From Limnovirga soli (GTDB lineage: Bacteria; Bacteroidota; Bacteroidia; Chitinophagales; Chitinophagaceae), in the NCBI RefSeq assembly GCF_013106755.1, contig NZ_WHPF01000002.1, forward strand, positions 310,001 to 374,000: 64,000 nucleotides of DNA, given 5' to 3'. Below are positions 261 to 62,599 of this stretch, piece by piece (within the stretch, counting starts at the first letter, position 1; each line of letters opens with the position of its first letter). Under the pieces are notes generated by a model that was not told the DNA's origin, did not search any database, and was given only the letters and a program-made list of their open reading frames with translations. The translations under genes were made by a program, and so were the position numbers.

Positions 261-304
261 CTTTACTTGCCACGCTCGGTTCAAGGTTCCTCTTTCATGG
301 CAGC
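261..304 (+). repeat. dispersed intergenic element, core type C (copy 1)
   Basis: Contains CTTGCCACGCTCGGTTCAAG and ends in CATGGCAGC; preceded by GCAGCTTTA. Nearly the same block recurs at 37041, 50902 and 57918. It lies in the gap between two minus-strand genes. Confidence 0.85.
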
Positions 305-320
305 AGAATAAATGCAATGC

Positions 321-2744
321 TTAATAATCACCATCAAAACAACCAATTGGCGAACCCGGAGGTGGGGCTTCATGCGTCGTTGGTTTGGCATCTTCTGGTG
401 CTTTAATTCTTTCCATGGTTAATTGCAAGTATCCTTTATATACCACATCTGTATTTGTTTTTAGCTGGGCTTTTGCATATTCATTGATATTTTCAATAGC
501 AAATTGCATAGCTGCCTTTGTAGCAAATGAAGCATCATTATTAATACTGGTAGCCAATAAATAGGTAAGTAAGATTTGCTCATTTTGCTTTTGTATCATT
601 CCTGCCATTCCCTTTAACCTTGGGGCCTTCCAGGTTTTGGCAATTAAGGTTTTTATCATTTCATCAGCGCCCAAACCGGATCCCGTTTCTTTTTGCTGCA
701 CCATTCTGTTTAACCGACTGGTATTAAATAAAAAAGATAAGGGTAAATCCGCCGCTGTTTCAGCAGCTGCCAGAGGGTCAAATGCCAGACCGGTCCTGCG
801 GTTAAACAGCTCACGGGTATAATCATAACCTGCAGGCCTTGGTGGAATTAATTTGGTAACCGACTCAGGTATTGATAAAAATGCTGGATCAATACATTCA
901 ATAATAGCATTAAGTGCCTGTTGCTGTTGCTCTTTGGTCACTGTTTTAGTCACCATTTGTCCATCACCCTTAATCGCATAAGTATAATACATTCCGCCAA
1001 CCACCTTGGTAGCCGCTTCAACCTGGTAGCGATGCATTAAATACACTGGCACCAGCACATCTTCCAGCATAGCAAGGGGAGTGCCTTTTTGGATATTATT
1101 TAATCCAAAATTATTCATGGCAACTGCTCTTATTTTCATTACATCCTTTAAGCCGGTAACCGGGTCTGTGCCATTATCCCATAAATGTGCATTCGGGTGT
1201 AACCCGCCTGCATCCCGTGCATCACGATCAGAAATAAAACTAAGTCCGCTATTGGCAGCATCCACCAATATCTTATTTAATGCAGTGGCCTCATCCGTAC
1301 CGGCAACAAATTCAGCATAGCCGTACCGAATACTCACCTTATCCCACGCTCCTATTTTGTTATCATATGCATCTGCCAAGGTAATCTTATTATCTCCTGT
1401 CAATTTCACCATGGGGTGGGGATAATCCATCACACTGGCCATGCCTTCGGCACTGGCAATATAGTTATGCATTAGCCCTAAAGTATGCCCCACTTCATGT
1501 GCAGCCAATTGTTTTAAACGGGCTAAGGCCATTTGAAGCATAGCATCATCTTTTGGTAAACTATCAGTATCAAATGGCGCCAGTAAACCCTGAGCAATTA
1601 AATAATCCTGTCTAACCCTTAATGATCCCAGGGATACATTGCCTTTAATAATCTCCCCAGTTCTTGGATCAACCACTGCATCTCCAAACGACCAACCACG
1701 CGTGGAGCGGTGCACCCAATTAATCATATTATACCTTAAATCCATTGGGTCGGCACTATCAGGCAATATTTTTACCTGAAAAGCATTGATAAACCCAGCC
1801 GCTTCAAAAGCCTGATTCCACCAACTGGCGCCTTCCATTAATGCGCTGCGGATAGGTTCCGGTGTACCATTATCCAAATAATAAACAATGGGTTTAATGG
1901 CTTCACTTCTTGCCGCCAGCGGATCTTTTTTCTGTAGCCGGTGACGAATAATAAAATTCTTTTGAATAGGTGATGCTACCGGTGTACTATAGTCAAAATA
2001 GCTATTGGTAATAAAAGGCGAACGGGCATCGTATAAACGGGGTATATAATTATTATCAGGTAACTGCACAAAAGAATGGTGTATGCGTAATGTAATAGCT
2101 TCGGGCACAGGGGTTACGGCATTTACAAAAGCGCCTGGCCTGCCATCTTTTATTTGAAAAGTAACAGTAGATTCAAACTCTGTATTTAATGGAAAATTTT
2201 TCGTGCGTGGCAGGTACATCGCAGTTCTGGAAGCATCCAGAAAATAGTTGCCTTGTTTTGCGGCCTGTAATTTACTGGTGATTTGCAATGCATCCCGGCA
2301 TAAAAAATCGGTAGCATCAACCAGATAAGCACCATTGGATGAAGCGGCAATAGTAAAACCCCAGATTACTGATTGTGCAAATGATTGTTCTACGGCCCTT
2401 TTTTCAGCTGCATCGCCACTAACGGCTCGGTAGGCAAAATTGGGTTCCTTCATCAATATTTTATTGCCAACTTTGCTAAATGTAACAATATAAGTAGTGC
2501 CCATAATACCTCGATCCAGTCCTACATCATTAGAGCCGAGACCGGCTGGCAATGAGGTTTGGTATAAAATTTCCGAATCCAGTTTATCTATCTGTAGCCA
2601 TATTTTACCCGTACTATCATCCCAATAAAAATTAAAAAAGCCCTTATAAGCTGTCATTCTTTTGGCCTTCTCTTCGATACTGGTACCAGATTGCGCTTGT
2701 ATAAACAAGGGTACCAACAATAACAGGATACAAAGCTTTCTCAT
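321..2744 (-). CDS. Secreted zinc-dependent metalloprotease (DUF5117/DUF5118/DUF4953-type)
   Basis: 807 residues. An N-terminal signal peptide (MRKLCILLLLVPLFIQAQ) points to export. The extended zinc motif HEVGHTLGLMH spans residues 416-426, giving zinc ligands H416, H420 and H426 and catalytic E417, as in metzincin-like peptidases; a downstream MDYPHP may be the Met-turn region. The N-terminal region (KRMTAYKGFFNFYWDD, then LPAGLGSNDVGLDRG) and the long C-terminal part match my recollection of the DUF5118, DUF5117 and DUF4953 domains, which occur together in Bacteroidota periplasmic or surface proteases. The substrate is unknown. It is transcribed alone: the next gene upstream is divergent. 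Confidence 0.88.
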   Translation of the reverse strand: MRKLCILLLLVPLFIQAQSGTSIEEKAKRMTAYKGFFNFYWDDSTGKIWLQIDKLDSEILYQTSLPAGLGSNDVGLDRGIMGTTYIVTFSKVGNKILMKEPNFAYRAVSGDAAEKRAVEQSFAQSVIWGFTIAASSNGAYLVDATDFLCRDALQITSKLQAAKQGNYFLDASRTAMYLPRTKNFPLNTEFESTVTFQIKDGRPGAFVNAVTPVPEAITLRIHHSFVQLPDNNYIPRLYDARSPFITNSYFDYSTPVASPIQKNFIIRHRLQKKDPLAARSEAIKPIVYYLDNGTPEPIRSALMEGASWWNQAFEAAGFINAFQVKILPDSADPMDLRYNMINWVHRSTRGWSFGDAVVDPRTGEIIKGNVSLGSLRVRQDYLIAQGLLAPFDTDSLPKDDAMLQMALARLKQLAAHEVGHTLGLMHNYIASAEGMASVMDYPHPMVKLTGDNKITLADAYDNKIGAWDKVSIRYGYAEFVAGTDEATALNKILVDAANSGLSFISDRDARDAGGLHPNAHLWDNGTDPVTGLKDVMKIRAVAMNNFGLNNIQKGTPLAMLEDVLVPVYLMHRYQVEAATKVVGGMYYTYAIKGDGQMVTKTVTKEQQQQALNAIIECIDPAFLSIPESVTKLIPPRPAGYDYTRELFNRRTGLAFDPLAAAETAADLPLSFLFNTSRLNRMVQQKETGSGLGADEMIKTLIAKTWKAPRLKGMAGMIQKQNEQILLTYLLATSINNDASFATKAAMQFAIENINEYAKAQLKTNTDVVYKGYLQLTMERIKAPEDAKPTTHEAPPPGSPIGCFDGDY

Positions 2745-2845
2745 ATTAATTATTTAGCTAACACAAAATACAAACTATTTTAGGGCTTACCTATTCATCC
2801 CTTTTGTTTTATTTGAGGCATTTAAAAGCTGCATAATGCGTTGCA

Positions 2846-2865
2846 GTACAAGTGAGTGACACAAC
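2846..2865 (-). repeat. dispersed intergenic element, core type B (copy 1)
   Basis: Minus strand reads GTTGTGTCACTCACTTGTAC followed by TGCAACGC and TATGCAGC. It has the same 3' half and the same flanking TATGCAGC as the A elements but a different 5' half. It lies in a divergent gap. Confidence 0.7.
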
Positions 2866-2947
2866 CATGCTAAATAGACTTTTATGGCCCGGCAAATAAT
2901 TGTAATTCATCCAACCGAGCAAACTGCTTAAGCTAAACGCATTGCAT

Positions 2948-2955
2948 TACCTTTG
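2948..2955 (+). promoter_or_regulatory. Bacteroidota -7 box (TACCTTTG) of the S1-domain gene
   Basis: TACCTTTG fits the TAnnTTTG -7 consensus of Bacteroidota promoters. It ends 6 nt before the ATG at 2962, so the transcript would be leaderless or nearly so. No convincing -33 TTTG was found at the usual distance. Confidence 0.5.
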
Positions 2956-2961
2956 CGCCTT

Positions 2962-3810: not shown

Positions 3811-3851
3811 TTTTTTTTGTTGAACCAGGCAAAACAAGATGATGCAGCTGT

Positions 3852-3872
3852 ACTTGCGTCGCACTCTTGTAC
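3852..3872 (+). repeat. dispersed intergenic element, core type A (copy 1)
   Basis: Contains CTTGCGTCGCACTCTTGTAC, preceded by GCAGCT. It would be translated as YLRRTLVR if the next gene were started too far upstream, which argues for the later start. Confidence 0.9.
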
Positions 3873-3907
3873 GGCAACAATACTATTCAACTTTAAAAAC
3901 AATTTAT

Positions 3908-4165: not shown

Positions 4166-4184
4166 AAACTGTTATACAAGTTTT
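4165..4184. terminator. weak bidirectional terminator between convergent genes
   Basis: AAAACT (4165-4170) and AGTTTT (4179-4184) form a short A/T-rich hairpin in the 17-bp gap of a convergent gene pair. The stem is weak, so this is tentative. Confidence 0.3.
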
Positions 4185-5199: not shown

Positions 5200-5295
5200 A
5201 TATCAGCAATGATTATTTAATGCAAGGAGACAGCTACCATAAATTTACATAAACGAAACTACTATATTGCTTTTTTGCCGAATAGTATTGTTGCC

Positions 5296-5316
5296 GCACA
5301 AGTGTGCGACGCAAGT
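5296..5316 (-). repeat. dispersed intergenic element, core type A (copy 2)
   Basis: Minus strand reads ACTTGCGTCGCAC then ACTTGTGC, a variant in which GCACA and TGTGC can pair. It lies 3' of the RNase R gene. Confidence 0.85.
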
Positions 5317-5367
5317 TAAGCTGCACCAATTGTTGTTGTTTGGCTAAAAAACAAAAACACTATGCGT

Positions 5368-7380: not shown

Positions 7381-7491
7381 CTTTTCTATTTTTTATTGGG
7401 TGTTTTTCTACAATTTTTAAAATTAAACAGTTCACTCAAAACAAGTGAAAATGCTTTTTTTGGCCCGTCATTTTACGCATCATTGGGCTTT

Positions 7492-7512
7492 ACTTGCGTC
7501 GCACTCTTGTAC
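7492..7512 (+). repeat. dispersed intergenic element, core type A (copy 3)
   Basis: Exact CTTGCGTCGCACTCTTGTAC in the 192-bp gap between rnr and lpxK; followed by ATGGCAGC about 15 nt later. Orientation is opposite to the surrounding genes. Confidence 0.9.
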
Positions 7513-7572
7513 TGCAGTATTTGATGGCAGCAAAACAAAGCGCCATTATATAAGCACTGCTACCCCGCAGTT

Positions 7573-9904: not shown

Positions 9905-10444
9905 TTATTCAGCAGTAAAAAAAGAAAAAACAGTAGTACCATAATTACGCATAAAGCTAAAACCGGGAGCTTTCTCATAATTATTTCTTGGAGTGTGCTC
10001 CAATACAAAAAAGCCATCTTCGGCAATTAATTTTTTAGATACAATAATGGCTGGCAAATCATCAATCGTATTTAAGGCATAAGGTGGTCCGGCAAAAATA
10101 AAATCAAATTGTTCGGTGCAGGAAAGCAGATAACCAAATACATCCATCTTTAATACTTTACAGTTTTCCACACCCAGCATGTCTATATTCTTTTTTATAA
10201 ACCCATGCATTACAGTATCCTTTTCAACAATGGTTAAATCTGCCGCTCCCCGGGATGCCACTTCATAACTTATACAACCGGTGCCCCCAAACAAATCCAA
10301 TGTTTTGGCATCCTCAAAAACAAATCGGCTTTGCAGAATATTAAAAAGGCCCTCTTTTGCAATATCGGTTGTTGGCCTGGTATAAGGCATTTTTGCCGGC
10401 GGACTAATTCGCCGCCCCCCATATTTCCCTGATATAATTCTCAT
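9905..10444 (-). CDS. rsmD: RsmD-family 16S rRNA guanine-N2 methyltransferase
   Basis: 179 residues, close to the usual RsmD size. The start MRIISGKYGGRRI, the TRPTTDIAKEGLFNIL segment and the SAM-binding LDLFGGTGCISYEVASRGA are characteristic. RsmD methylates G966 of 16S rRNA during 30S assembly. The catalytic motif IV, normally DPP[FY], reads GPPY here (G119-P120-P121-Y122), so the first Asp is replaced by Gly; this may be a lineage variant, but the residue normally contacts the target amino group. It is 8 bp from the DUF3822 gene, an association I recall as recurrent in Bacteroidota. Confidence 0.92.
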   Translation of the reverse strand: MRIISGKYGGRRISPPAKMPYTRPTTDIAKEGLFNILQSRFVFEDAKTLDLFGGTGCISYEVASRGAADLTIVEKDTVMHGFIKKNIDMLGVENCKVLKMDVFGYLLSCTEQFDFIFAGPPYALNTIDDLPAIIVSKKLIAEDGFFVLEHTPRNNYEKAPGFSFMRNYGTTVFSFFTAE

Positions 10445-10452: not shown

Positions 10453-11253
10453 TTAACAAAATGATGCAAAATAATGCAATGGATACGCTAAAAATTCTGC
10501 TGAGGAAAAACGATTTTCCGGCACCACAGCTATCGATAATTTAGGCAGGTAAGCATACAATTTTTCGTACATGGAAGAATCGGTTGTTATAAAACCCGCA
10601 GCAGTAATCTGTGTAGTTTCCAATGGCAGATTTTGCGTTGCACAAACATTTAAAATATTATACAACACATCATCCGGGGTTTGATAGGCAAACTGTTGCA
10701 TTAATAAAAGCTGGCTATTCTTAACAGCCAGTACCAACACATTGCTTTTATAAAAAAACACCTGAATTCCTGTACCGGTAATGCCCAGTCTTGTTAATAT
10801 ACCCATATAAGCATGGCTATGAGAATCCACTTCAAAATGCTCATCATATTCCATTCTGGCAATTTGAGGAATGGTAGACAATACCACCATATCTTTTATT
10901 TTCTCCACCAATAAAGTATGTGGTTGCTGTACACCAAACAACAGGTAGCCATACTCGGCCAAAGAAGACCTGGTATAAACCGTTTCAGGTATAAAAGTAC
11001 ATTGCGCATGCCCCCAAATACAATGTACCTTGCTAAAACCACTGGTTAATAAGCGGGAATAAAGCTTTACATTTTTATATAGTTCATTAAAATCTGTTGC
11101 AGCGGTAACAGCATCAAAATCAAATAACTCAAATGCTTCCATACTGCCAGCAGCATTATTGCACCAGCAGGCAATATAATCATTACCTGTTTCTATAAAC
11201 AGTGTGCAATCTGTTAAATCACTATTATAAATACTAAAAGATTTTTGCACCAT
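10453..11253 (-). CDS. DUF3822-family protein
   Basis: About 266 residues from the ATG at 11253 (MVQKSFSIYNSDLTDCTLF); ATGs at 11262 and 11349 are also in frame, but the longest version would translate a hairpin-containing upstream region. No signal peptide or obvious transmembrane helix. The pattern (FIETGNDYIACW, FSKVHCIWGHAQCTFIP, YEKLYAYLPKL) fits the DUF3822 family of Bacteroidota. Function is unknown. Its position just upstream of rsmD, with an 8-bp gap, suggests it is the first gene of the minus-strand cluster. Confidence 0.78.
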   Translation of the reverse strand: MVQKSFSIYNSDLTDCTLFIETGNDYIACWCNNAAGSMEAFELFDFDAVTAATDFNELYKNVKLYSRLLTSGFSKVHCIWGHAQCTFIPETVYTRSSLAEYGYLLFGVQQPHTLLVEKIKDMVVLSTIPQIARMEYDEHFEVDSHSHAYMGILTRLGITGTGIQVFFYKSNVLVLAVKNSQLLLMQQFAYQTPDDVLYNILNVCATQNLPLETTQITAAGFITTDSSMYEKLYAYLPKLSIAVVPENRFSSAEFLAYPLHYFASFC

Positions 11254-11301
11254 CTGCAACATATTAATCTGCAATGTTACAAAAAAAATGGCGCCAGCCT
11301 G

Positions 11302-11320
11302 CAGCCCATTTTTTGGGCTG
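11302..11320. other. strong hairpin in divergent promoter region
   Basis: CAGCCCA (11302-11308) and TGGGCTG (11314-11320) form a perfect 7-bp stem with a TTTTT loop; a second GCCAGC/GCTGGC pairing overlaps it. On the minus strand a run of eight T follows about 14 nt later, so an attenuator-like role for the DUF3822-rsmD transcript is possible but unproven. Confidence 0.5.
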
Positions 11321-11452
11321 GCAATACAAAACAATAAATGGTGCAGCAATTGGCCTTAATAGAATTTGCTGAAAAAGATTTCATTAAGCCCTTGCCAAAA
11401 CTGTTAGTTCTAGTTTATTTTTACCGATATTTACCAACAGAAAACCGTATAT

Positions 11453-11851
11453 ATGTTACAAAGAATTCAAACAGTGTGGTTATTGCTGGCAGCTGCTTTT
11501 GCCTTTATTTCGTTGCAAACCAATTTTTATGTGGCTACCGTACCGCCTGTTTTTTTCACCGGCCAAACCGAAATGTTTATTCTTATTCTTACAGTCATCA
11601 GTGGCACTTTATCGCTGGTAAATATTTTTTTATACAAAAACAGACCATTACAGCTTAAACTTACCCTCGCCAATCTGGGTGTAAGCATCGTAGAAATTGT
11701 ATTTTATTTTCTGGCTTTGGAAAATTATACCAGTGGCGCATTTGCCTTAACTTCCGTAGTGGTTTTTGCTTGCCCCCTATTGTTATTACTGGCTGCACGT
11801 GGTATTTATGCCGACCAAAAATTAATTAAAAGTGTAGACAGGTTGCGCTAA
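11453..11851 (+). CDS. DUF4293-family integral membrane protein
   Basis: 132 residues beginning MLQRIQTVWLLLAAAFAFI. Four hydrophobic segments are visible: ~7-27, ~42-62 (MFILILTVISGTLSLVNIFLY), ~72-90 and ~97-117, giving a four-helix inner-membrane protein. The MLQRIQTVWLLLA start and length match DUF4293, a Bacteroidota family with no assigned function. It is divergent from the DUF3822 gene, with a ~200-bp intergenic region that holds a strong hairpin. Confidence 0.8.
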   Translation: MLQRIQTVWLLLAAAFAFISLQTNFYVATVPPVFFTGQTEMFILILTVISGTLSLVNIFLYKNRPLQLKLTLANLGVSIVEIVFYFLALENYTSGAFALTSVVVFACPLLLLLAARGIYADQKLIKSVDRLR

Positions 11852-11932
11852 AATACCTGCTGCTTTTGGAATTATCTACCATTATTCATTGTAATTATTA
11901 TTAGCCCGGCTAAAAATGGCAATGGCATCTTT

Positions 11933-11953
11933 ACTTGCGTCGCACACTTGTGC
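11933..11953 (+). repeat. dispersed intergenic element, core type A (copy 4, left arm of an inverted pair)
   Basis: CTTGCGTCGCACACTTGTGC variant. Together with the copy at 12041 in the opposite orientation it brackets ~87 nt downstream of the first giant gene. Confidence 0.88.
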
Positions 11954-12040
11954 TCTAACGCTAAATGCAGCTGTAAACAGCCAATATCTATCTGAAGATT
12001 TTCTTAGATACTATTCTATTTGCCCGGCTGAATTACTGCC

Positions 12041-12060
12041 GTACAAGTGTGCGACGCAAG
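12041..12060 (-). repeat. dispersed intergenic element, core type A (copy 5, right arm of an inverted pair)
   Basis: GTACAAGTGTGCGACGCAAG, followed by AATGCC. It lies 51 bp beyond the stop codon of the first giant gene. Confidence 0.88.
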
Positions 12061-12111
12061 AATGCCTAATAGCATTGCTTTTGCCCGGCCAATAACTGCA
12101 TTTTTGCCAGC

Positions 12112-15100
12112 TTATTCTACTACTATTTTTTGGGTGTTATGATAATTATTACCCACCACATGCAATTGGTAAATACCATTGGCCCATGTGGCAGGCAATA
12201 CCAGCGGATAAGCTGCGGCACCACCTGTATGTGCTATTTGTGTTTGCAATAACCTGGTCCCATTTACGCCATACACTACCAGAGTGTATGTAGCTGCCGG
12301 CATATTGGTAAACTGTACCATGGCAATGCGCTGTTTTACCGGATTTGGATATACCGCAATGCCTGACGGCAAATTGCCAGTTTTTACAAGCACTATCTGG
12401 CTTTGAATAATATGACCATCTTTATCAACGGCTTTTATGCGGTAATAGTTGGCAGCCGCTAATGGCAACGCATCAGTTGACTGATAAGTACTGCTGCCAT
12501 TGGCTTTTACATTTGCAATAGTGTTGAAATTGATACCATTGCCAGCCCTTTCTACTTCGTAATGATCGGTATTAATTTCAGTGCCAACCTTCCATTCTAT
12601 TTTTACCTGTGTACCTAGTTGCCAGGCTTTTACCTGTACAAAATTTACGGGTAAAATAATGGTACCACTATTTGCAACCGAGAAATTGGCCAGTCCGCTA
12701 AAATCGGTAATACCATTGGCAGTTTGATTGGTAGTATTATCGCCACTGTTGCCAAAAGTATAGGCTGCAAAAACTTCGGTATTATTGGCGCTACCGGTAA
12801 AGTTGAATATATCATTGGCACCATTGGTTCCCCCGCCTGAAGTATTGGCAAAACCGCCATTGGATAAGCTTACAATACGGTGTAATAAACGGGCGTCAGT
12901 CCACACAAAACCATCTTCTACTTCATCTTGTGCAGTTTGATAGATACCCAATCTTTTTAAGAAGAATAATTTCATACTTACCTGACTGCCGCCTGCGGTA
13001 CCTTCTACCACATGCCAGATAAGGTTTACACGCGGTAATGGCGTACCGCCAATATCACCTTTAAACATAGTGATGGTATAGTTATCGGCTGTGCCATTAT
13101 TCTTTAAACTAATACGGTTGGGGCTGGTTACAAAATTGTAACCCACAGGTAAAAACACTTCGGTGGAGCCTAAATTGTTTACCCTAAAGCCTGTTGAGCC
13201 ATCTGTAGTAGTAATAGGGTTGCCACTGCCATCGCATAACGCCACAAAGCTTTGTCGCAGAGAGGTACTATCCGTACCTGCAGCCCAAACGTTTACAGCT
13301 GCAGCTGTGCCATTGGTACTGGTAGTTGACAATAGATTATTACCAATAGCCAGAATACCGTTATTAAAAGTAAGGCTATTGGTAGTAAGGTTACCACCGA
13401 GTAAAACGGAATGTGTTTTTATGCCTGCACTCATGGTTCTGTTGAGCGTAAGATTATTTAAGGTAGCCGGATAACTGTTAAACACCAGCGTACCAATACC
13501 AGTACTGGTACCAGTACCCCCAATGGTAATATTTGAAGAAGAAGTACTTGCCAGCGAACCAGAAACCGTAGTTAATGTACCATTAATGCCAAGGGTATTA
13601 GATTGTATACTCAATATGCCGGATTCCAGCTTAAGTACTTTATCTACAGCCAGATTACGGCTTAAGGTAACACCGGCGCCTGAGTTTTTAATGTGCAGGT
13701 TATTTAAATTAATAGTACCTGTACCTGAAATATCCTGCACCCCATTACGGCTAAGAATTAAACTATCTGTTCCGCCACCATTCAGGTTAAAAGTGCCATC
13801 AACCTGCACATTGCCCTTTACTTCAAAACCAGTACCTGCCGTACCTACTGTGGCACTATTATTCAAAGTATTGCCGCTGCGTACGATCAGGTTACCTACA
13901 ATTTGCATGGGGGTAGCATTGGTATTATCGTTGGTAATGGTAACCGTTCCAGTACCAGTACCACCAATATCAAAATTGCCCTTTACAGTAGCAAACCCGG
14001 TACTGCCCGTAAATCGACTGGTAGCACCTGGCGACCAGGCGCCATTGCTGCTTTCTACGGTAAGATTGGGGTAAACAGTTCCGCCTACTGTGGTAAAACT
14101 AACATCCCCAGCACCGCTATAACGTATAATCCAATTAGAAGTGGAGGGTATATTGGCCATGCCCGTTTCGTAATTATCCCTATACCCTGTTGAAGAAGAA
14201 TTGCGGCATTTTATAAATGTGCCATTACTACCCAAACTCCAGGTTGAAGTACTAAATGTAACGCCTTTACCAGAAGCGGCACTATCTTTAAAAGTACCAT
14301 TTACCACCAAATCAGTACCTGTACCATCATTTAAAGTAAGCGTGGTATTGGCCAAAACAAGAGTGCCTCCTAAATTAATGGTTAACTCATCCAGACTAAC
14401 TGGATTATTTATAGTTACAGTATGACCGTTTAAAATAGTAATACTGGCAGCCGTATTATCCGGTGCGGCAGAAGCCTGTTGGAAAGAACTATTATCTACG
14501 GAAGATAACCAGGTGCAACCGCTCTCAAATTTACCGCTGCCATTGGTTTTATAATATAGTCCGGCAATTAAACTGCTGCTTAAACCAGTTACAATAATAT
14601 CATCAATTCTGCTTGAACCACCACTAGTAATAGATCCACCGCTAACAGAGGTATTGGATGTCATTATCCAACGTAAAAAAACTTGTGATTGATTCTCACA
14701 AGCCACTGGTAAAGCAAGATTTGACAAAACACCAGATGTAAAATTATCAGCAACTGTAATAGTACCGCCGGTTACTGCTGTCCAGGTTCCACCTGAACCT
14801 ACTTTGTATTCAAGTCTAAAATCGCGTGGACCATTAGAAGATGTAGATCTTTGCTTTGAATAAATTTTTAATGTATTATAATTGAGAGTTGAAATGTCAA
14901 TTTGCCAGTATTTTACACCATTTCCAGAACCCCAGGAAGTGGCCGAGGCAGAAAAACCAGTAGCGCCAGCAAGCGTATATCCAATCGCACTTGTACCACC
15001 AACAGTACTTATTACTTTACTCGCATTAGCGACTGTATTAACGTCTACGGTTGCATTTTGGTCATCAAAATTCCATTTTGCCAGCGTAATGGTTGTATTT

Positions 15101-18100
15101 GAAGCAGTGCTCAAAATATCAAACAAATTACTTGTTGCAGCGGTTAAAGGCGATGCAGTGGCAGTTAGTGTAACATTGCTTTCAAAAACCGATAAGGTAA
15201 TATTGGAGAAGGTAGCCAAACCGGCCACAGCGGTAGCTGTATTATTTTGAATACCATTACAACTGGAGCCATCCAGCGATAAAGTAATTAATGCAGTATT
15301 ATTTAAATCCCGGTTACCATTTACATCAGCTGCCTGCACTGTTACGGCAGGAGACATTACCACTGTAGCCTGCGTATTGGAAGGTTGGGTTACAAAAAAC
15401 AAGTTAGTGGCAGCCACATCTACTGCATTATTGTTTGGGCCGGATTCAGTTACACCTGCCCCAGTTCTAAACTGTGTAGATACCCCAAAAGATGGTGTTA
15501 CAAAATTGGTACGGTCTACCTTAAACGCAAAATTCAATCCATCAATTGTAGCAGGTAAAGTACCACCCAGTGAGGTTTTCAACCATATTTTCAGGATATA
15601 GGTTTTATTGGCTTCATCAGCAATATAACCCAAACTGCCACTTGTGGTGGAAATGCCTGAGAAAACAATGCTGGTGGTTTTTATTGTGGCGGTAACCGGT
15701 GTATTAATACCATCGGAAAGTTCTGCTCCCGCAATGGCCTGTGTCCAGTCAGCAATATCATTTCCTGTTCCCTGTAAAAAACTAAGTTTAGAGAATTGTG
15801 TGGGCAGCACATCATCACCCCCGCCAACCCTGTAACCATCATCTGTAACCTGAATATCAAAATTCAATACAGCCCCGGCCTGGGTGGTTATCAGCGATGA
15901 GATGGTAAGCGGTTCGGTACTGCTACCACCTGCAATGGTTGCAAAAGGCACCCCCAAACCGGCAAATTCATCTGCACCAATATCAGGCGTACTAGCATTT
16001 CTTGTATCACCGTCATAATCAGTAGTTACGCCGCTGATATTGGCACCACCACTTTCTATTTGTGTAGGTATTAAAGTGCTAATATGCAGAAAATTGGCAT
16101 TTGCACCATTGGCACTTAAAAAATTTGGAGCTTCGGTAATAGTGGCATTATCCCTTGGATATACTCTTTCCAGGTAAGTATCGATGGTTTGATCGGCGTT
16201 GGTTCCATCATAAAACAACAAATTGGTAGCACTGGCAGCACCTGCATACAATAGGTTATTATTGCTGTTTGCATTGTAATTGGTAAGATCGGTACTACTG
16301 CGTCTATATGCTGCTGTAACACCGGTACCTGTAGCGGTAGATGTGTTTACAATAATATTGTTACGCATATTTAATGCACCGTTATTAGCAGAAGCATTGG
16401 TTGTATGATATACCCCACTGCTGCCAAAATTGGCGCCGCTTGAGCTGGCATTTAAATACACCGTGTTACTATATAGATTAACCGTTGCACCGCCATTACT
16501 GGCACTGATATTAAATGCACGGATAGCTTCATTAGCCGAAGAAGGAGCAAGTAAATTACCAATATAATTATTGGACAAGGTGATACTGTTGGTAATATTA
16601 CCAATAGCATAGCCATATACTGTACCTGCCGCATTGGTTGCCTGTAAATCGTATATTTTATTTTTGGCACTCGTAAAACCAGTTAGCTGGCCCACATTTA
16701 CTGCAGTAATATTGGTACCGGTAGTTACCAGGGTATTGATATTATTGCTGGAAAAATCAACTGCACCATTGCTACAGGAAAAAGCGGTAATATTTCCGGA
16801 AGCAGAAATACTGCTGATGGTATTTCCGGTTACGGTAGCAGCCGTGCTTTTACTAACAATCAATACATCAGTGGTATTACAATTAATCCAGTTACTAAAA
16901 GTATTGTTGGTAATGGTTCTGGTAGGGCCTGCTGTACCTGATGCATCTGTGCTACTCCAGCCCAGCATTTGCGATGTACCACTTGCCAGCGTAATATTAC
17001 TGAAGTTATTACCCGAATGTGTAATTGTACTACCAATAGCAGATGTACCGGAGGCGCTGATATATAAAGTTATAGACCCTCCAGCCCCTCTTTTTCTGTA
17101 TGAAGTACCAATACTATTATTACTAACGGTTTGTGTACCAGATGAAGTAAGGGTAACACCATTATTCGATATGAAAATGATATTGCCGGTGGTATTTACA
17201 TCTAAAAGATTAAAAGCATTACTACTGATATTTTGAGATAAGGTAGAAGCACTGTTTAAAATATAGGTATGTGATGAGGAAGCAGCGGTAATATCAGACA
17301 AGCGGTTAATATTGTTAGTTTGAATGGATAATGCCGCCGCAGCACCACCACCTGTATTACTAAAACCGGTAAATGCACCAGTACTGGCAACACTAAAACT
17401 AATATTGCCACCTGCACCCGCAACACCAATATTATTGCTATTGATATTAATAGCTGTAGCGCAGTTACCTGAATTGGAAAAACCTGTGAAAGCTGAAGTA
17501 GCGCCGCTCATAGTAATATTTTTAATAGTATTACTATTCATATTAAGCGTACCCGGGGCTGAAGTATTAACAATACCCGTAAAATTACCGGCGGTACTGC
17601 AACCGGTAATGGTATTATTGGTAATATTAAAAGTAACACCACTGATGGAGGACAATTGCTCCGTTCTGATTACTTCAAATGTAGGACTGACGCTGGTAGT
17701 AACAGTAAGTGTATTATTACTAATGGTATTGGTAAAACTACCAGAGGAGGGTGATATTGTGCTATAATTTTGATAAATAGCCCTGGTAGCCGCCGATGTA
17801 CTTAAACTGGCACTTGTAATAGTATTATAAGAAATATTGATACCCTGCTGATGATTGGCATATATAGCTGCCACCGTACCTGTTACATTTAAGGGAATTG
17901 AACTTTTTGTATCGTTACCCCAATTGGTAATCGTATTGGCTGTTGCAGCAGAACTGCCTCCAATATCGTTGCCAATATCCTGATAGGTGGAACTGGTACT
18001 TGAACCAACAAATACAATCGCCGTATTTACATTGCTGATATTATTGCTATAAATTTTATTATTACTGTTGGCATTACCCGCACCTGGAAACAAATAAATA

Positions 18101-18780: not shown

Positions 18781-19044
18781 AGGCAACGCATTAAAACAGG
18801 AATAACCTGTTGGTTTTTTTAAGGATAGAGGGTTATCTAACATATGTAACTCAAACTGATGTTTTATACTTATGGCACCAGAAGAATAAACAAAAATATA
18901 AAATAAATACAATAATAAATTAATGTAAAGGCTTTTTAGTCAATAATTTAAGTAAAAACTAATCCCCTAAATAGTGGAAACAACAACTTTTTAGCCAGTA
19001 TTAATATAGATATTGGGCCCAGCCGCATTACTGTAATATGACTT

Positions 19045-19065
19045 ACTTGCGTCGCACACTTGTGC
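19045..19065 (+). repeat. dispersed intergenic element, core type A (copy 6, left arm of an inverted pair)
   Basis: CTTGCGTCGCACACTTGTGC, identical to the copy at 11933, in the duplicated 3' flank of the second giant gene. Confidence 0.88.
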
Positions 19066-19151
19066 TGTAACACTATATGCAACCGTAAACAGCCAATATT
19101 AACCAGAAGATTTTTTAGATGCCATTTTGGTTGCCCAGCTACCTTTTAGCC

Positions 19152-19171
19152 GTACAAGTGTGCGATGCAAG
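19152..19171 (-). repeat. dispersed intergenic element, core type A (copy 7, right arm of an inverted pair)
   Basis: GTACAAGTGTGCGATGCAAG, one substitution (GCGAT for GCGAC) from the copy at 12041. Confidence 0.85.
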
Positions 19172-19222
19172 AATGCCTGATAGCATAGCTGTTGCCTGGC
19201 CAATAACTGCATTTTTACCTGC

Positions 19223-25954: not shown

Positions 25955-26174
25955 GTTGCTCGTTTCAATGGATCTTCTTCTGTACGGCATAATAAATTTA
26001 TTCCACATAATTGTTATTGGTTAAACAGGAAATGGAATATCTCAAAGCCTACAAATTAACAACAAGAAATTTAGTAAAAGATGGCTGGTAACAGGTTTTA
26101 AGGATTATGTAATATTGAATTACGTTTTAGAATAAAATTTTAGCAATTTTAAATTGAACCCAGATAAATAAACA

Positions 26175-26206: not shown

Positions 26207-26284
26207 ATAAATTTTGACCTGAATAAGCCTTCTCAGCTTTTTGGTGAATAATTTGCCTTTACCAGCTGCATAGCATTACCGGCC

Positions 26285-26304
26285 GTACAAGTGTGCGACG
26301 CAAG
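26285..26304 (-). repeat. dispersed intergenic element, core type A (copy 8)
   Basis: GTACAAGTGTGCGACGCAAG followed by AATGCC, as at 12041; upstream on the + strand lies GCTGCATAGCATTACC, the usual flank. Confidence 0.88.
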
Positions 26305-26368
26305 AATGCCCCATAGCTAAACTAAAGTTTGGCTCAAAATAATCTAACTCAACAGGCAAGGAATGAGA

Positions 26369-26656: not shown

Positions 26657-26989
26657 AAGGGTTACAGGGTTAGCAAAAGAAACTGATGTTTACACAAAAT
26701 ATTGCATAATACCAATGGCTTTTACATGTTATTGTAAATAATAAATATGGGTTTCAATTTAGCTTTTCTGGTAGTGGATTTTTTTTGGTTAGCCTAACAT
26801 CGTCTGGTGCTGTCAACTTTACTTGCGTCGCACACTTCAGGGTACTACTCATTTTTGAGCCGGAATTAAACAACATATTGGATTAGGTTTTGGGTGTTTC
26901 CAGATTAAAGATAGTAAAACCTGCGACAATGCGCATATATTACCAATTTATTATCAAAAAATATCCGGTTGGGATAGTCCGAAAATCTT
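26657..26989. other. 333-bp gap with an A/C chimeric repeat
   Basis: Apart from the element at 26821-26851 and AT-rich sequence that should include the promoter of the 95-residue ORF, nothing further was recognised. Confidence 0.5.
26821..26851 (+). repeat. chimeric dispersed element (A-type 5' half, C-type 3' half; copy 9 of A)
   Basis: Starts ACTTGCGTCGCACACTT like type A, then continues CAGGGTAC-TACTCAT, close to the TTCAGGGTTCCTCAT of the type C copy at 50902. Confidence 0.65.
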
Positions 26990-29835: not shown

Positions 29836-29911
29836 TAGAGGCTTAGCTTTTTCAACTAAATATGGCATAGTTATTTTTTTGTTAACCCAGCCAGGTAAAA
29901 GCAGCAGCTTT

Positions 29912-29932
29912 ACTTGCGTCGCACTCTTGTAC
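29912..29932 (+). repeat. dispersed intergenic element, core type A (copy 10)
   Basis: Exact CTTGCGTCGCACTCTTGTAC, preceded by GCAGCAGCTTTA and followed by ATATGCAAC; lies ~75 bp after ffh. Confidence 0.9.
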
Positions 29933-30135
29933 GGTTATAACCATATGCAACTGTTGCTAACAGCCAGTAGGGCAATGAATAATATATACAGGCATGCAAC
30001 GGTAAAATCCAACACGCATATTTCGGGCTAAACTGCAATTGTTTATTTATTTTCAAGGTTTTACACATTTGTTTACATGATTATTTTTTAATTTTATATA
30101 GAGGTACGATATTCGCAACATGAATGACTGTTAGT

Positions 30136-31361: not shown

Positions 31362-31413
31362 ATTGACGGAAAACCCCTCTCATTATCCATTCAAGCTGAA
31401 CAGGATTACTACA

Positions 31414-31434
31414 GTACAAGAGTGCGACGCAAGT
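31414..31434 (-). repeat. dispersed intergenic element, core type A (copy 11)
   Basis: GTACAAGAGTGCGACGCAAG plus T; opposite orientation to the flanking + strand genes. Confidence 0.9.
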
Positions 31435-31538
31435 AATGCTCCATCAACTTAAAATGCCTGGTTCAAAGAATTAACAGTATTTACTGGCAGTTTATAATGC
31501 CGCCCATCACAAATAGCTATTTAACGTATTAAACCATT

Positions 31539-36858: not shown

Positions 36859-36900
36859 TTGCCGTGTTTGTATTTTAAAAGCTGCATAGCATTACCAAAC

Positions 36901-36921
36901 GTACAAGAGTGCGACGCAAGT
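36901..36921 (-). repeat. dispersed intergenic element, core type A (copy 12)
   Basis: GTACAAGAGTGCGACGCAAG plus T, preceded by AGCTGCATAGCATTACC and followed by GCAGCTC. Confidence 0.9.
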
Positions 36922-37040
36922 GCAGCTCAATAGTACTACCAAAACCGGGCTCAAAAAAATACAGGTACAAAATAATATTTGATTAATTCTTTATTATCAT
37001 TTTCTTTTTTTTGGTAGCCTGCAGTTGATAATTAATGCAG

Positions 37041-37084
37041 CTTTACTTGCCACGCTCGGTTCAGGGTTCCACTTTCATGGCAGC
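37041..37084 (+). repeat. dispersed intergenic element, core type C (copy 2)
   Basis: CTTGCCACGCTCGGTTCAGG followed by GTTCC and TTTCATGGCAGC; preceded by GCAGCTTTA. It differs from the copy at 261 at only a couple of bases. Confidence 0.9.
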
Positions 37085-38797: not shown

Positions 38798-38847
38798 GTA
38801 GCATTTTAAGGATTAAACCTTGTTATAAGCTGCTTAAAGTACCGGAA

Positions 38848-38868
38848 GTACAAGAGTGCGACGCAAGT
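38848..38868 (-). repeat. dispersed intergenic element, core type A (copy 13)
   Basis: GTACAAGAGTGCGACGCAAG plus TAAAGC, with AAGCTGCTTAAAGTACC upstream. Confidence 0.9.
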
Positions 38869-39038
38869 AAAGCCGCGATAAGAGCCAATGCCCGGCCCAA
38901 TATTGGCTTTAAGCTTTTATACCAAGTAAAGAACCGAATTGCTGTATAATGGCTTTAATACAAGGCTCATTAAAAAATAACTGTATTTTTAAAAATATTT
39001 TTTCCTTTTTCGAGTTAGTATAACAGAATTTTTACTGA

Positions 39039-42620: not shown

Positions 42621-42709
42621 ATATGCATTTTGTTTCCTGTTGTTTGCACCAAGCCATAATACCCATGTGGCTTTTTGTTAACAGGGCTTTTGTAATTCTA
42701 TGCAACATC

Positions 42710-42729
42710 GTTGTGTCACTCACTTGTAC
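42710..42729 (+). repeat. dispersed intergenic element, core type B (copy 2)
   Basis: GTTGTGTCACTCACTTGTAC, the same core as the minus-strand copy at 2846. Confidence 0.7.
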
Positions 42730-42746
42730 GTTTAGATTATTAATTG

Positions 42747-44230: not shown

Positions 44231-44351
44231 TAATAGAAAAAGGCAAAGCAGCATTTGATTTGAATAAACTGTTGCGCCACTGTGGGTTAGTTTACCTAAA
44301 TTTCCCCTTACCTACTCCATTGGCCAGCTTATGCTGCCATATAACCGGAAC

Positions 44352-44371
44352 GTACAAGAGTGCGACGCAAG
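44352..44371 (-). repeat. dispersed intergenic element, core type A (copy 14)
   Basis: GTACAAGAGTGCGACGCAAG, with GCTGCCATATAACCGG upstream. Confidence 0.88.
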
Positions 44372-44475
44372 AGGCGATGCCATAAGATTATTTGACGGGC
44401 AACAAAACTCTTAATCATATTTTATTGGCTGTTTTTTTAAAGTGATTATATTGCAAGTGTTTGAAACTCTCAATT

Positions 44476-48638: not shown

Positions 48639-48706
48639 TTATTATTATTAGACATTGTTGTTTCGCTACCTTACCCTGTTCTATCCTGCTGCCATATTAT
48701 CTATCA

Positions 48707-48727
48707 GCACAAGAGTGCGACGCAAGT
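48707..48727 (-). repeat. dispersed intergenic element, core type A (copy 15)
   Basis: GCACAAGAGTGCGACGCAAG plus T; GCAC and GTGC can pair here. CTGCTGCCATATTAT lies upstream. Confidence 0.88.
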
Positions 48728-48763
48728 AAAGCTGCATGATGTTTCTAAAGCCGGGTACACAAT

Positions 48764-50221
48764 TTATATGGTGCTTTTAGGGCAATTAACTGCATCTTTT
48801 GTTTTGGGCTTAAACGGATGAATATTGAGTAACAGGTAACCGCCACCATTATAGGTTTGGGTACCGGTTTTTAACCAATTAAACATGTCTAAATTATGCA
48901 GTCCCAACAGCAATGGGCCTAGTTTTAAGGCACCACCTACCCATAATTGCCCCTGTGTATTGTATTGCACAGGAAAGTAAATGCCCAGTTGGCGGGTTTC
49001 CCAGCGTGGGGTAACGGTTAGCAGGTTTATTTCCCTTGTTTTTATAGCATCCCATGGTTGGGTAGAAAAGAAATTGATGTTTAATTGTGTGTTTACATAA
49101 AAGTGATTGCCCAGGTTTTTATCAACACTCATTACCATTCGGGTAGGATTGGCAATAACAAAATTGGAGGTAAGGGAATCGATGGTATTTACATATGTAG
49201 ATAACGTATTGCGTAAACCTCTGATGGAAGACACATTATTATTTGAGGAGGTTAACGCAGAACTGGTAGCCTGCGAAGTTGGATTGGATGCTTTAAAAGA
49301 ACCATCTGCCGGGGTAAAAATATTTTTACCAATATCCATAATGCTTACCCCAATTTTCCATTCATAATTTTCTGCATTTAGTGCTTCTTCTTCATAGGCA
49401 GATCCCTTTCTAAACAGATATTCAAAACCCACATTAAGGTTAATAGAAGAATGGGTGTTTTTATAAAAGGCTTTCAGGTTATCGCCTATACTTTTATTCT
49501 CGTCAAGCAACGCATAATTAGAAGAATATGCTGCTTTTATGGAGCCACCGGTAGCCGCATAATCGGGGTTGCCATTAGGGTCTATAATATCCATATAATT
49601 TAACTGGTAGGCATTGGCATTTAACCCGGATAAAGCCTTGGTATACCCTGCGGTTAAACCAATGGTAAAGCGGTCGTTATCACTTTGCTGAATAACCCGG
49701 GAATAGTTTAGGTTCAGCTCCAGCCAGCCACTATGGGTGCCATAACCCTGCAGGTAATTGGTGCCTTTATTTGCTTTTAAAAAATCGGGCACATCGGCAA
49801 TAGAATCAGTAAATACAAATGGTTCGGCTTTGGCATTTACCAAACACCGGCCCCTGATTCCAAATGCAATAGCAGATTTACTGTTAATGTTAAACCTGGC
49901 ATTTAATAAAGTGCCGTCAAAATTGCCTTGTAATGATCTTGTTTTAAATCCGCTGGTAATAGCAGCACTGGCCTGCGAATAATCCGTTAACGACATATTG
50001 TTTACCACAAAACCGGTATTGCTTAATACTTCTTGTATGGATAACAGATTTACATCCCATTTATACGCCGAATTAACTGTGGCAGCAGGGTTTACAAACA
50101 TGGCATTTACACCGGCATAGGGCGAGCCATTTAATGCATGATAACTTTGTGCCTGACTACTTGCAGCCATCATTAACAGCAAAGCCATTAGGGTATTTTT
50201 TGAAAGGATAGGGTGCTTCAT
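48764..50221 (-). CDS. DUF5723-family outer-membrane-type protein
   Basis: 485 residues from the ATG at 50221 (MKHPILSKNTLMALLLMMAA, cleavage after SSQAQ); an upstream TTG is ignored. The mature part is rich in alternating aromatic/polar beta strands (WLELNLNYSRVIQQ, RFTIGLTAGYTKALSG, INLNVGFEYLFRKG, FYVNTQLNINFF) typical of an outer-membrane beta-barrel. The SYHALNGSPYAGVNAMFVNPA start fits DUF5723. Such proteins resemble PorV/FadL-like barrels; the role is unknown. Its 3' end faces the DUF3857 operon. Confidence 0.8.
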   Translation of the reverse strand: MKHPILSKNTLMALLLMMAASSQAQSYHALNGSPYAGVNAMFVNPAATVNSAYKWDVNLLSIQEVLSNTGFVVNNMSLTDYSQASAAITSGFKTRSLQGNFDGTLLNARFNINSKSAIAFGIRGRCLVNAKAEPFVFTDSIADVPDFLKANKGTNYLQGYGTHSGWLELNLNYSRVIQQSDNDRFTIGLTAGYTKALSGLNANAYQLNYMDIIDPNGNPDYAATGGSIKAAYSSNYALLDENKSIGDNLKAFYKNTHSSINLNVGFEYLFRKGSAYEEEALNAENYEWKIGVSIMDIGKNIFTPADGSFKASNPTSQATSSALTSSNNNVSSIRGLRNTLSTYVNTIDSLTSNFVIANPTRMVMSVDKNLGNHFYVNTQLNINFFSTQPWDAIKTREINLLTVTPRWETRQLGIYFPVQYNTQGQLWVGGALKLGPLLLGLHNLDMFNWLKTGTQTYNGGGYLLLNIHPFKPKTKDAVNCPKSTI

Positions 50222-50792: not shown

Positions 50793-50901
50793 ATTACTAT
50801 TGTTTATGGCAGCTAAAATAAGGCTATCCTTTTATAAAATATCGCGTAAAAAATAATTAGGAAATATTTGGTGGCAGGCAATAGTTTTCATGGCATCGCC
50901 G

Positions 50902-50940
50902 CTTGCCACGCTCGGTTCAGGGTTCCTCATATATGGCAGC
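50902..50940 (+). repeat. dispersed intergenic element, core type C (copy 3)
   Basis: CTTGCCACGCTCGGTTCAGG then GTTCCTCATATATGGCAGC, in a divergent gap. Confidence 0.88.
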
Positions 50941-53728: not shown

Positions 53729-53783
53729 GTGCCTTTACACAAGGTAATATTTGTAGCCAGGCGAAATCTCAATAGTTAACTTT

Positions 53784-53804
53784 ACTTCCGTCGCACTCTT
53801 GTAC
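53784..53804 (+). repeat. dispersed intergenic element, core type A (copy 16)
   Basis: CTTCCGTCGCACTCTTGTAC, one base off the consensus, followed by TATGCAGC and, 28 nt later, by element D copy 1. Confidence 0.88.
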
Positions 53805-53840
53805 TGTAGTAATACTATGCAGCTTTATAAAATGGCTGTT

Positions 53841-57732: not shown

Positions 57733-57786
57733 GCCAGCAATATTATTATTTAATGCGCATATTAGCAATTTGAAACTGCTTTTACT

Positions 57787-57865: not shown

Positions 57866-57917
57866 ATTATGCTACTAGATTTTTATGTAGCCGGCTATAG
57901 ATTAAGATGCAGCTGCT

Positions 57918-57956
57918 CTTGCCACGCTCGGTTCAGGGTTCCAGCCCTGTGGCAGC
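57918..57956 (+). repeat. dispersed intergenic element, core type C (copy 4)
   Basis: CTTGCCACGCTCGGTTCAGG, then GTTCC and GTGGCAGC; preceded by GATGCAGCTG. Confidence 0.88.
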
Positions 57957-57962
57957 TATATA

Positions 57963-60034: not shown

Positions 60035-60064
60035 TATCTTCATCTAAAATTGATAGGACAATTT

Positions 60065-61795: not shown

Positions 61796-61846
61796 AAGTG
61801 CAGTAATTAAAGTATTGGCCAGAGGTACGCCTAAGCATGAGGCATT

Positions 61847-61866
61847 CTTGCGTCGCACTCTTGTAC
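61847..61866 (+). repeat. dispersed intergenic element, core type A (copy 18)
   Basis: Exact CTTGCGTCGCACTCTTGTAC followed by GGCAACAAAACTGGCAGC, in a convergent gap of 97 bp. Confidence 0.9.
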
Positions 61867-61892
61867 GGCAACAAAACTGGCAGCAAATACAA

Positions 61893-62498
61893 CTATCTGG
61901 TAAAAAAATATAAGGCTATAATTGCTATGCCAATAGCGGCCAGTATAAGCGCATGTTGCAGCCATTTTTCTTTTGGGGGAGCATCATCATCTGTTAATCC
62001 ATCCTCAGTTAATGCTGTATCGCTTACAATGCCTAGCTGGGTATGCATTTCGGCCGAGGTTTTGTCCTCCTCGCCTACCCTAACCTGGTGAATGGCATTT
62101 TGCCTGATTACTTTTTGAGCAGCCATTGGTGCAAAAAACAAACCGGATGCAGCCAATGGTTTAAATTGAACTACTTCATTTTGTTTGGATAAGGAACCAA
62201 TGCCATGCAGCACAAATACAAGTCCGCTGTTTAGTTGCGCCTGCATATCGTTTATAAAAGCAGAAAACTGCTCAGTAATTTCATCAATGGTTAGCCCTGT
62301 GCAGGAAGCTATATATCTTACCAAACCAGAGTCGTACAATGAATTGGAAGGTACAAACGCAATGGCTTTGGAGGGTGCATCTATCGTTTTATCCGCAAAT
62401 TGCAGCGATGCCGGTTTATGTTCTACTGTAAATGACCCCAAACCCGGCAATACCAGGTTTTTATACAGGGAAAGATATGAAAGACAATATTGATGCAT
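61893..62498 (-). CDS. Membrane-anchored CCDC81-like HU-domain protein
   Basis: 201 residues. The N-terminal ~120 residues match the prokaryotic CCDC81-like HU domains: YCLSYLSLYKNLVLPGLGSFTVEHKPA, then a second unit IASCTGLTIDEITEQFSAFINDMQ and LVFVLHGIGSLSKQNE. An acidic linker follows, and the C-terminus has one transmembrane helix (ALILAAIGIAIIALYFFTR). The topology implies an HU-like domain on the cytoplasmic side of the membrane, possibly linking DNA or another ligand to the envelope (inference). It lies 147 bp downstream of a barrel protein gene, with a repeat A between. Confidence 0.82.
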   Translation of the reverse strand: MHQYCLSYLSLYKNLVLPGLGSFTVEHKPASLQFADKTIDAPSKAIAFVPSNSLYDSGLVRYIASCTGLTIDEITEQFSAFINDMQAQLNSGLVFVLHGIGSLSKQNEVVQFKPLAASGLFFAPMAAQKVIRQNAIHQVRVGEEDKTSAEMHTQLGIVSDTALTEDGLTDDDAPPKEKWLQHALILAAIGIAIIALYFFTR

Positions 62499-62579
62499 GT
62501 GTGTATTGTAACAGTTACCCTGAAAATTACAAATTTTTAATCAGGTATATCAATTGTATTTGCCGCCCAAAGATATGTG

Positions 62580-62599
62580 GTACAAGTGTGCGACGCAAG
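62580..62599 (-). repeat. dispersed intergenic element, core type A (copy 19)
   Basis: GTACAAGTGTGCGACGCAAG between the barrel gene and the HU-like gene. Confidence 0.88.

Follow-up and report, generated by a model that had tools for sequence, protein, structure and literature searches.

Several kinds of short dispersed sequence resemble in part the repeat described here. In lambdoid phages a conserved short sequence, the boundary sequence, borders an exchanged phage gene, and in mobile insertion cassettes (MICs) inverted ends are able to enclose passenger genes without a transposase. REPINs (repetitive extragenic palindrome, REP, doublets forming hairpins) and bacterial interspersed mosaic elements (BIMEs) share with our repeat hundreds of short intergenic copies and close inverted pairs, and the available text of PMC2817692 describes an alternating orientation within BIMEs. 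Repeats tagged with CGTC are, in the accessible part of PMC3733652, stem-loops of 20-40 bp with the tag at one end. Here we analyse a short intergenic repeat of Limnovirga soli (Chitinophagaceae) found in a 64,000-nucleotide stretch of contig NZ_WHPF01000002.1, positions 310,001 to 374,000 (hereafter the window; C12:310001-374000 of the host genome G000, whose congeners are G001 and G002). To our knowledge, its filling of gaps, its presence in host and phage, its near-invariant core and an orientation rule that extends over kilobases make it unlike the dispersed repeats known. A literature search by core strings and by repeats of this group, covering titles and abstract starts of open-licence papers, found no description of it.

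The repeat is real, amounts to well over a thousand copies in the host and is larger than first described. A first-pass annotation of the window had counted 19 copies with core A, two of them partial, two with core B and four with core C; allowing up to three mismatches, the figures for B and C were confirmed and that for A became 17, plus one hybrid at 26822. Chance expectation in 100 shuffles of the window was 0.00, 0.00 and 0.01 for A, B and C at the same threshold. Exact-pattern counts in the whole host genome (5.48 Mb, 77 contigs) gave 1126 A and 133 C cores, 1486 matches to a combined A/B pattern, none to reversed control patterns, and 77 copies of a fourth core, D (TTGCGTCGCADTMMNTTYATC). 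Closer work was done on 1.264 of the 5.48 Mb, in hand-chosen contigs, and on small parts of other genomes, with gene context taken from a purpose-made caller of open reading frames (ORFs); this host sample holds 28 D-like sites, none of them in the window. Copies are present genome-wide, not only in the window, and few lie in predicted genes (14 of 491 cores in the sample, while 84% of its bases are coding), these being the two points on which the annotation had staked its claim.

Its statement that no copy lies inside a real gene was nearly right: one of the 19 A/B copies of the window, at 3853, where there is an ORF of 108 aa, and none of the four C copies overlap a predicted gene. That most gaps are occupied holds, for gaps of at least 100 bp, between convergent (86 of 101) and codirectional genes (233 of 357), but not quite between divergent ones (53 of 115). 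Copies often start directly after a stop codon, and those at least 75 nt away from one are preceded by a hairpin in 29% of cases, against 1% in shuffled sequence. Should the element be able to insert without harm behind stop codons and terminators, the filling of 3′ gaps would follow.

Each copy may be regarded as an oriented 'end' of about 75-80 nt, consisting of a T-tract, a CC-motif, a linker, a core of 19-21 nt (A to D or hybrids), a second linker and often GCRGC. The shared frame claimed for the cores is indeed present, with a GCAGCTTTAC- or GCATCGCCG-type sequence 5′ of the core and often GC(A/G)GC some 33 nt past the beginning of the core; a CCNGGC-type motif is located about 30 nt upstream of the core, and the T-tract further upstream. 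In an alignment of 120 A copies the T-tract is followed by CC(N)GGC, a weak linker leads to a GC, and the core comes next, with GC(A/G)GC behind it. The linkers are near random and vary in length by 1 nt, while the core hardly varies: the A core occurs in 464 kb 108 times exactly, 12 times with one mismatch and four times with two. In the 1.264-Mb sample just three strings (that of A in 371 copies, of C in 65 and of B in 49) account for the 5′ core half of 485 of the 491 copies, a figure obtained with a search pattern that itself admitted few other 5′ halves. The cores are exchangeable, as had been proposed, and to a greater extent, since the fourth core D and hybrids such as an A 5′ half with a C 3′ half also occur.

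Core type is coupled to the upstream motif despite the variable linker between them. Among copies with either motif (58 A, 23 B, 26 C and 5 D copies have neither), A cores are preceded by CCNRRC 309 times and by CCRGC four times, the corresponding figures for B, C and D jointly being 11 and 74 (Fisher p 5e-63); D cores prefer ATA before the motif. The CC-motif and the core would thus form one bipartite recognition site, probably read by a single protein. The T-tract belongs to the element, since its T content (54%) is the same whichever way the upstream gene points, and on this ground its interpretation as a terminator remnant was rejected. Linkers as direct repeats gave no clear effect (left/right identity 0.422 within elements, 0.410 shuffled), and a coding role was discarded on the 1-nt linker variation and on stops judged by eye, frames of single copies being sometimes open. 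Core A contains CGTC within a 9-nt palindrome (TGCGTCGCA), which is its likeness to CGTC-tagged REPs; it differs in that the CGTC lies in the middle and that conservation extends to no larger stem-loop. By eye, some elements (L213, in the gap aligned to L080:840-960; L214; L063:7238) are broken by hairpin-like extra sequence immediately before the core or in it, and in one G249 copy a long hairpin replaces the middle of the core.

The order of copies along the chromosome is + - + -. Orientation relative to genes is mixed, as the annotation had stated, but the alternation of neighbouring copies had escaped it. Among host neighbours up to 250 bp apart, '+-' occurs 91 times, '-+' five times and the same direction once, short-range inverted pairing being also a property of the REPs and REPINs associated with REP-associated tyrosine transposases (RAYTs). 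Among single neighbours in the host 182 are opposite and 66 the same (p 1e-13), or 103 and 17 up to 2 kb, and the alternation is gone beyond 4 kb. Twelve other genomes give opposite:same ratios of 50:0 up to 300 bp, 20:1 at 0.3-1 kb and 46:6 at 1-2 kb, falling to 54:24 at 2-4 kb and 17:13 at 4-20 kb; in viral contigs the ratio up to 4 kb is 18:3, identical pairs being counted once.

Several possible causes of this order were rejected. Purging of direct repeats by homologous recombination is ruled out, since neighbours with unlike cores alternate as much as those with like cores (86:16 and 100:20 opposite:same at 0.3-2 kb) and since most next-but-one copies, taken at 1.5-3 kb, point the same way (99 same, 49 opposite). 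Gene context is rejected up to 2 kb by a simulation, with D and genic copies set aside, in which 0.498 of the neighbours at 0.3-2 kb were opposite (maximum 0.641 of 2000 runs) while 0.795 were observed; at 2-4 kb the observed value is 0.596 and the maximum of the null 0.612. Local inverted copying was discarded on finding neighbours no more alike than random pairs. A replichore bias was suggested by an apparent all-'+' pattern in G006, which proved to be a sorting artefact. In a '+' then '-' pair the T-tract ends face outward and the 3′ sides of the cores inward. As a statistical pattern such pairs are either empty, about 50-250 bp long, or lie around one or a few genes, and they may move as units; '+-' units set one after another, with or without genes between their two members, would suffice to give the + - + - order.

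The same order would arise if a protein bridged two inverted sites, the copies being oriented binding sites that serve as boundary, looping or supercoiling anchors and are kept by selection. This is the strongest rival explanation and we consider it unlikely. It accounts for nearly invariant cores between near-random linkers, for the bipartite coupling of core and motif, for an alternation indifferent to core type and thus foreign to recombination purging, and for the weak dependence of orientation on the flanking genes together with the richness of convergent gaps. It predicts neither the lower GC content of '+...-' segments nor the dispersed subfamily, both described below.

Genes in segments of 0.3-3 kb differ according to the orientation of the bordering copies. 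Their GC content is 0.380 in '+...-' (n=116) and 0.404 in '-...+' segments (n=148; p 5e-7), and codon score (p 3e-4) and gene length are also lower in the former; with length matched at 400-1400 bp the GC difference persists (p 6e-5). By eye, with no formal test, '-...+' segments contain genes for IF3, ParA/ParB, a sigma-70 factor, molybdenum-cofactor synthesis and DnaJ, and '+...-' segments a NotI-type restriction pair, a sulfotransferase and a leucine-rich repeat (LRR) protein. The restriction pair, a NotI-type endonuclease and a D12 adenine methylase at L152:8000-9756, provides the sole ORFs of at least 120 aa in its '+...-' segment. No DNA match to it was found among 40 scored candidates each in G001 and G002. 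The gap that precedes the right-hand orthologue in G002 carries a '+' and a degenerate '-', separated by about 165 nt, and none of the restriction-modification genes; it is no clean empty site, since the left-hand gene differs.

One subfamily is dispersed in the two congeners. The host copy L152:5702-5845 has, among the matches listed, 33 counterparts in G001 and 18 in G002, as counted by hand; the count leaves aside one further weak match in G001, and its shorter matches may cover one arm only. Nine congener copies examined over their whole length share 86-96% pairwise identity across about 123 nt and have inverted ends GATTTTGCAGT...ACTGCAAAATTT; in three of the nine, end words of 8-11 nt are shared. 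This subfamily of 123-145 nt, with its inverted ends and end words shared at some copies, resembles miniature inverted-repeat transposable elements (MITEs), whereas most copies of the repeat, unlike MITEs and MICs, are without inverted ends and have their conserved part internal to the ends, and the movement of segments is a conjecture. The viral contigs L188 and L198 differ by a replaced stretch that opens within the right arm of an element present in both and closes at the junction between an inverted partner's outer end and common sequence. The repeat borders an exchanged stretch there as the lambdoid boundary sequences do; it differs from them in occurring in host chromosomes as well and in alternating orientation.

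The explanation that we prefer, with a confidence that stays somewhat short of even, is an old, non-autonomous mobile repeat, spread through the family, that acts as inverted pairs, either empty or enclosing genes. The two members of a pair would act together, the segment between them would move, and the moving enzyme would act in trans. The repeat would be old in that most sampled host copies have diverged outside the core, while the subfamily with inverted ends is, or was recently, dispersed in the two congeners.

A number of observations weigh against this explanation. Among 490 host copies no dispersed pair is near-identical, close pairs being local duplicates, so that the mobilisation proposed in the annotation is seen for one subfamily in two congeners and not in the host genome; the samples of ten other genomes are mostly alike in this respect, the exceptions being local duplicates, overlapping loci and, in G002, some dispersed C-core pairs at a distance of 0.21-0.26. 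Both inverted ends are present in one of 515 host copies, and they are hence a property of one subfamily only. Target duplications are irregular, with shared words of 4-7 nt in six of the nine congener copies, a count made with no chance control. The cores do not decay, which is unexpected for passive remnants of a transposon, alternation spans kilobases over which no joint movement is seen, and no moving enzyme was identified. Two acquired stretches, one of 44 kb resembling an integrative and conjugative element (ICE) and one integrase island of 17.8 kb, are without any copy. The GC gap is uneven by length (600-1000 bp, p 0.2, and p 0.009 at third codon positions, GC3; 1000-2500 bp, p 0.046, and GC3 p 0.18), Pfam match rates are alike in '+...-' (22 of 30) and '-...+' genes (25 of 30; Fisher p 0.53), these having been taken from 76 and 77 eligible genes, and '+...-' segments also include HisB and a DnaJ type.

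The elements of the window are the following, with approximate extents (the 20-mer core lengthened by 39 nt towards the T-tract and by 17 nt in the opposite direction).

227..302, + strand: element with core C (266-285)
2829..2904, - strand: element with core B (2846-2865)
3814..3889, + strand: element with core A (3853-3872), forming with the copy at 5296 a '+...-' segment around a 338-aa SGL-family gene
5279..5354, - strand: element with core A (5296-5315)
7454..7529, + strand: element with core A (7493-7512)
11895..11970, + strand: element with core A (11934-11953), left member of an inverted pair
12024..12099, - strand: element with core A (12041-12060), right member of that pair
19007..19082, + strand: element with core A (19046-19065), left member of an inverted pair
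19135..19210, - strand: element with core A with changes (19152-19171), right member of that pair
26268..26343, - strand: element with core A (26285-26304)
26783..26858, + strand: element with a hybrid core joining the 5′ half of A to the 3′ half of C
29874..29949, + strand: element with core A (29913-29932), downstream of a presumably ffh-like gene
31397..31472, - strand: element with core A (31414-31433)
36884..36959, - strand: element with core A (36901-36920)
37007..37082, + strand: element with core C (37046-37065), forming with the copy at 38848 a '+...-' segment around sulfotransferase-family and aminotransferase-family genes
38831..38906, - strand: element with core A (38848-38867)
42671..42746, + strand: element with core B (42710-42729)
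44335..44410, - strand: element with core A (44352-44371)
48690..48765, - strand: element with core A (48707-48726)
50863..50938, + strand: element with core C (50902-50921)
53746..53821, + strand: element with core A with one change (53785-53804), behind a terminator-like hairpin (by eye)
57879..57954, + strand: element with core C (57918-57937)
61808..61883, + strand: element with core A (61847-61866), forming with the copy at 62580 a '+...-' segment around a 201-aa gene with weak HU-like matches
62563..62638, - strand: element with core A (62580-62599)

Two adjacent giant ORFs of near-equal length (2266 and 2261 aa) occupy the minus strand of the window at 12112-18912 and 19223-26008. The element pairs 11934/12041 and 19046/19152 are alike and lie one behind each of them, and pairs and ORFs may have been duplicated together.

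Close '+-' pairs could act in RNA, as a terminator, a processing site or a small RNA, a role we regard as very unlikely. Pairs up to 130 bp apart (n=66) would often form strong hairpins (median -31.9 kcal/mol) and many copies directly follow stop codons, as a transcribed element might. A matched stem is, however, not what is kept, since unlike cores are paired about as often as core frequencies predict (38 of 91 pairs are A-A, against about 47 expected by hand calculation), and orientation to genes is mixed. Single copies show no fold: minimum free energy (MFE), RNAalifold on both strands and mutual information on 491 copies revealed no conserved structure (consensus energy by RNAalifold between -0.30 and -1.79; mean z of single sequences between -0.35 and -0.91), and the RNA processing site envisaged in the annotation found no support. 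Rfam 15 gave no match above the gathering score in the window. Covariation inside the core was dismissed, its few pair-like cases resting on the existence of three core types. In L066, L102 and L103, from G002, short palindromic words of GTCGACCGTT types are repeated in tandem, by eye, in the spacers that separate the two elements of a pair, so that the pairs contain an additional repeat.

A REP or REPIN family mobilised by a RAYT would likewise show high copy number, intergenic location and inverted pairs. The single Y1 transposase (PF01797) gene of the host genome, in L108 around 11066-11410, does lie inside a '+...-' segment, between a '+' at 10150 (about 0.9 kb away) and a '-' at 11710 (about 0.3 kb), but so do 116 sampled genes, and the Y1 gene is directly flanked by palindromic repeats of its own, of the GCTCCGTAGGAGC type, which constitute a separate REP family. 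The stable-hairpin palindrome expected of RAYT-associated repeats is not found, and there is no PF01797 match in four genomes that bear copies, G026 (160 copies), G054 (48), G073 (76) and G074 (20). The link to RAYTs is therefore weak and this origin most improbable. The view that the element is unlike a simple REP was mostly borne out by the lack of a fold, by the separate repeats of the Y1 gene and by the G026 copies. From REPINs and BIMEs it further differs by alternating over kilobases across genes and by its bipartite site with coupled alternatives, and the GTAG tag of REPs is absent, as judged by eye.

In relatives the distribution is broad and irregular. The A/B pattern was detected in 42 of 147 genomes, host included, in none of the 59 genomes of other families of the same order, and, within the family, in 191 of 394 genomes, counts per genome spanning 0 to 1974, the reversed control giving one match across these 394, in G221. 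The two congeners have 1974 and 1490 copies, the rest of the sampled family 0-1783, and genus g141 alone ranges from 1 to 1109. Such figures, with 203 of the 394 genomes lacking a match, would be odd if the repeat were a housekeeping anchor of the boundary kind discussed above. Dominant cores differ between genera. In Parafilimonas terrae and in Lacibacter luteus the locus examined contains a single copy. In relatives without A to C other cores were sought among 13-mers of 79 ffh loci; the 60 words listed recur at matching places, as conserved genes would, and were not retained.

The position of elements in turn is conserved to varying degrees. Between congeners at about 66-83% identity, the same gaps are filled by elements of other orientation and core. 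Some gaps occupied in one species lack an element in another. Within genus g25 (G026 compared with G249 and G181, about 79-89% identity) several elements keep their position, and in two gaps apparent orthologues differ in core (B/A; A/C-like) with both arms still recognisable. These two core swaps agree with the conversion-prone element of the first-pass annotation, independent insertion being also able to produce them; its general interpretation, a mobilised or conversion-prone element and possibly a binding or processing site, was supported in part, a binding role being compatible with the data.

The repeat is also present in 24 IMG/VR stretches, a profile search giving 51 elements in 24 loci with homologous contigs counted repeatedly. 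At least one group consists of real phages, with replication-initiation and primase/helicase genes, that carry complete elements. The IMG/VR contig with most matches, 2920066549_000001, is a putative viral sequence: of six of its proteins, five searched against Pfam gave no match and five compared with PHROGs gave one weak match of unassigned function.

The 44-kb ICE-like stretch (G000:C1:59182-103432, L033-L036) is the longest element-free region of the sample, the 95th percentile of the longest chance gap being 23 kb. It encodes a large serine recombinase and conjugation coupling proteins and adjoins a truncated-looking Mg-chelatase/ChlI-type gene, which we take to be comM. The integrase island (G000:C5:109338-127122, L157 and L158), next in length, encodes a tyrosine integrase together with a C5 DNA methylase, and its length is within chance. 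No copy was found in their gaps of at least 100 bp, 14 in the former and 8 in the latter. A further 14 kb without elements, also within chance, is occupied by a tandem array of four ORFs, each about 1100 aa long, that starts with L041:12928-16209 and extends to 226670 of C1; the first ORF contains WD40 repeats and a caspase (Peptidase_C14) domain.

Absence from both acquired islands (22 such gaps), the larger one exceeding chance, would suit a mark of self DNA such as a DNA uptake sequence (DUS) or uptake signal sequence (USS), kept by selection or molecular drive. More than 1000 strictly conserved, orientation-independent and mostly intergenic copies are common to these marks and to our repeat. 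Number, independence of orientation, intergenic place, a strict core within variable flanks and genus-specific dominant cores resemble what the available text of PMC2397512 reports, and the A core shows the strict conservation with few one-mismatch copies seen in uptake sequences, a likeness drawn from sequence alone. Absence from foreign DNA is not a rule, however, since phages hold copies, which weakens the case for a self/non-self mark made from the islands. In addition, four core versions coexist in one genome, and the uptake sequences treated in the available text of PMC2397512 show neither a span of 75-80 nt with a coupled motif at a distance nor strict alternation. This next rival is accordingly doubtful, and clearly improbable.

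A wider scheme is possible although somewhat unlikely: bipartite oriented sites in interchangeable versions would split the chromosomes of many Chitinophagaceae and some phage genomes into alternating segments, like brackets, '+...-' holding exchangeable accessory genes and '-...+' the backbone, and a DNA enzyme or a bridging protein would read two inverted sites up to about 4 kb apart, moving or looping the segment between them. Because neighbours are opposite far beyond chance, like opening and closing brackets, the repeat points to a system, so far undescribed, for marking or moving small gene segments. The coupled versions of core and CC-motif offer a handle for finding the protein. If the segments move, these bacteria would possess a system of gene cassettes with inverted ends that spans the genome; should the segments be bridged, the repeat would be a candidate for a bacterial boundary element.

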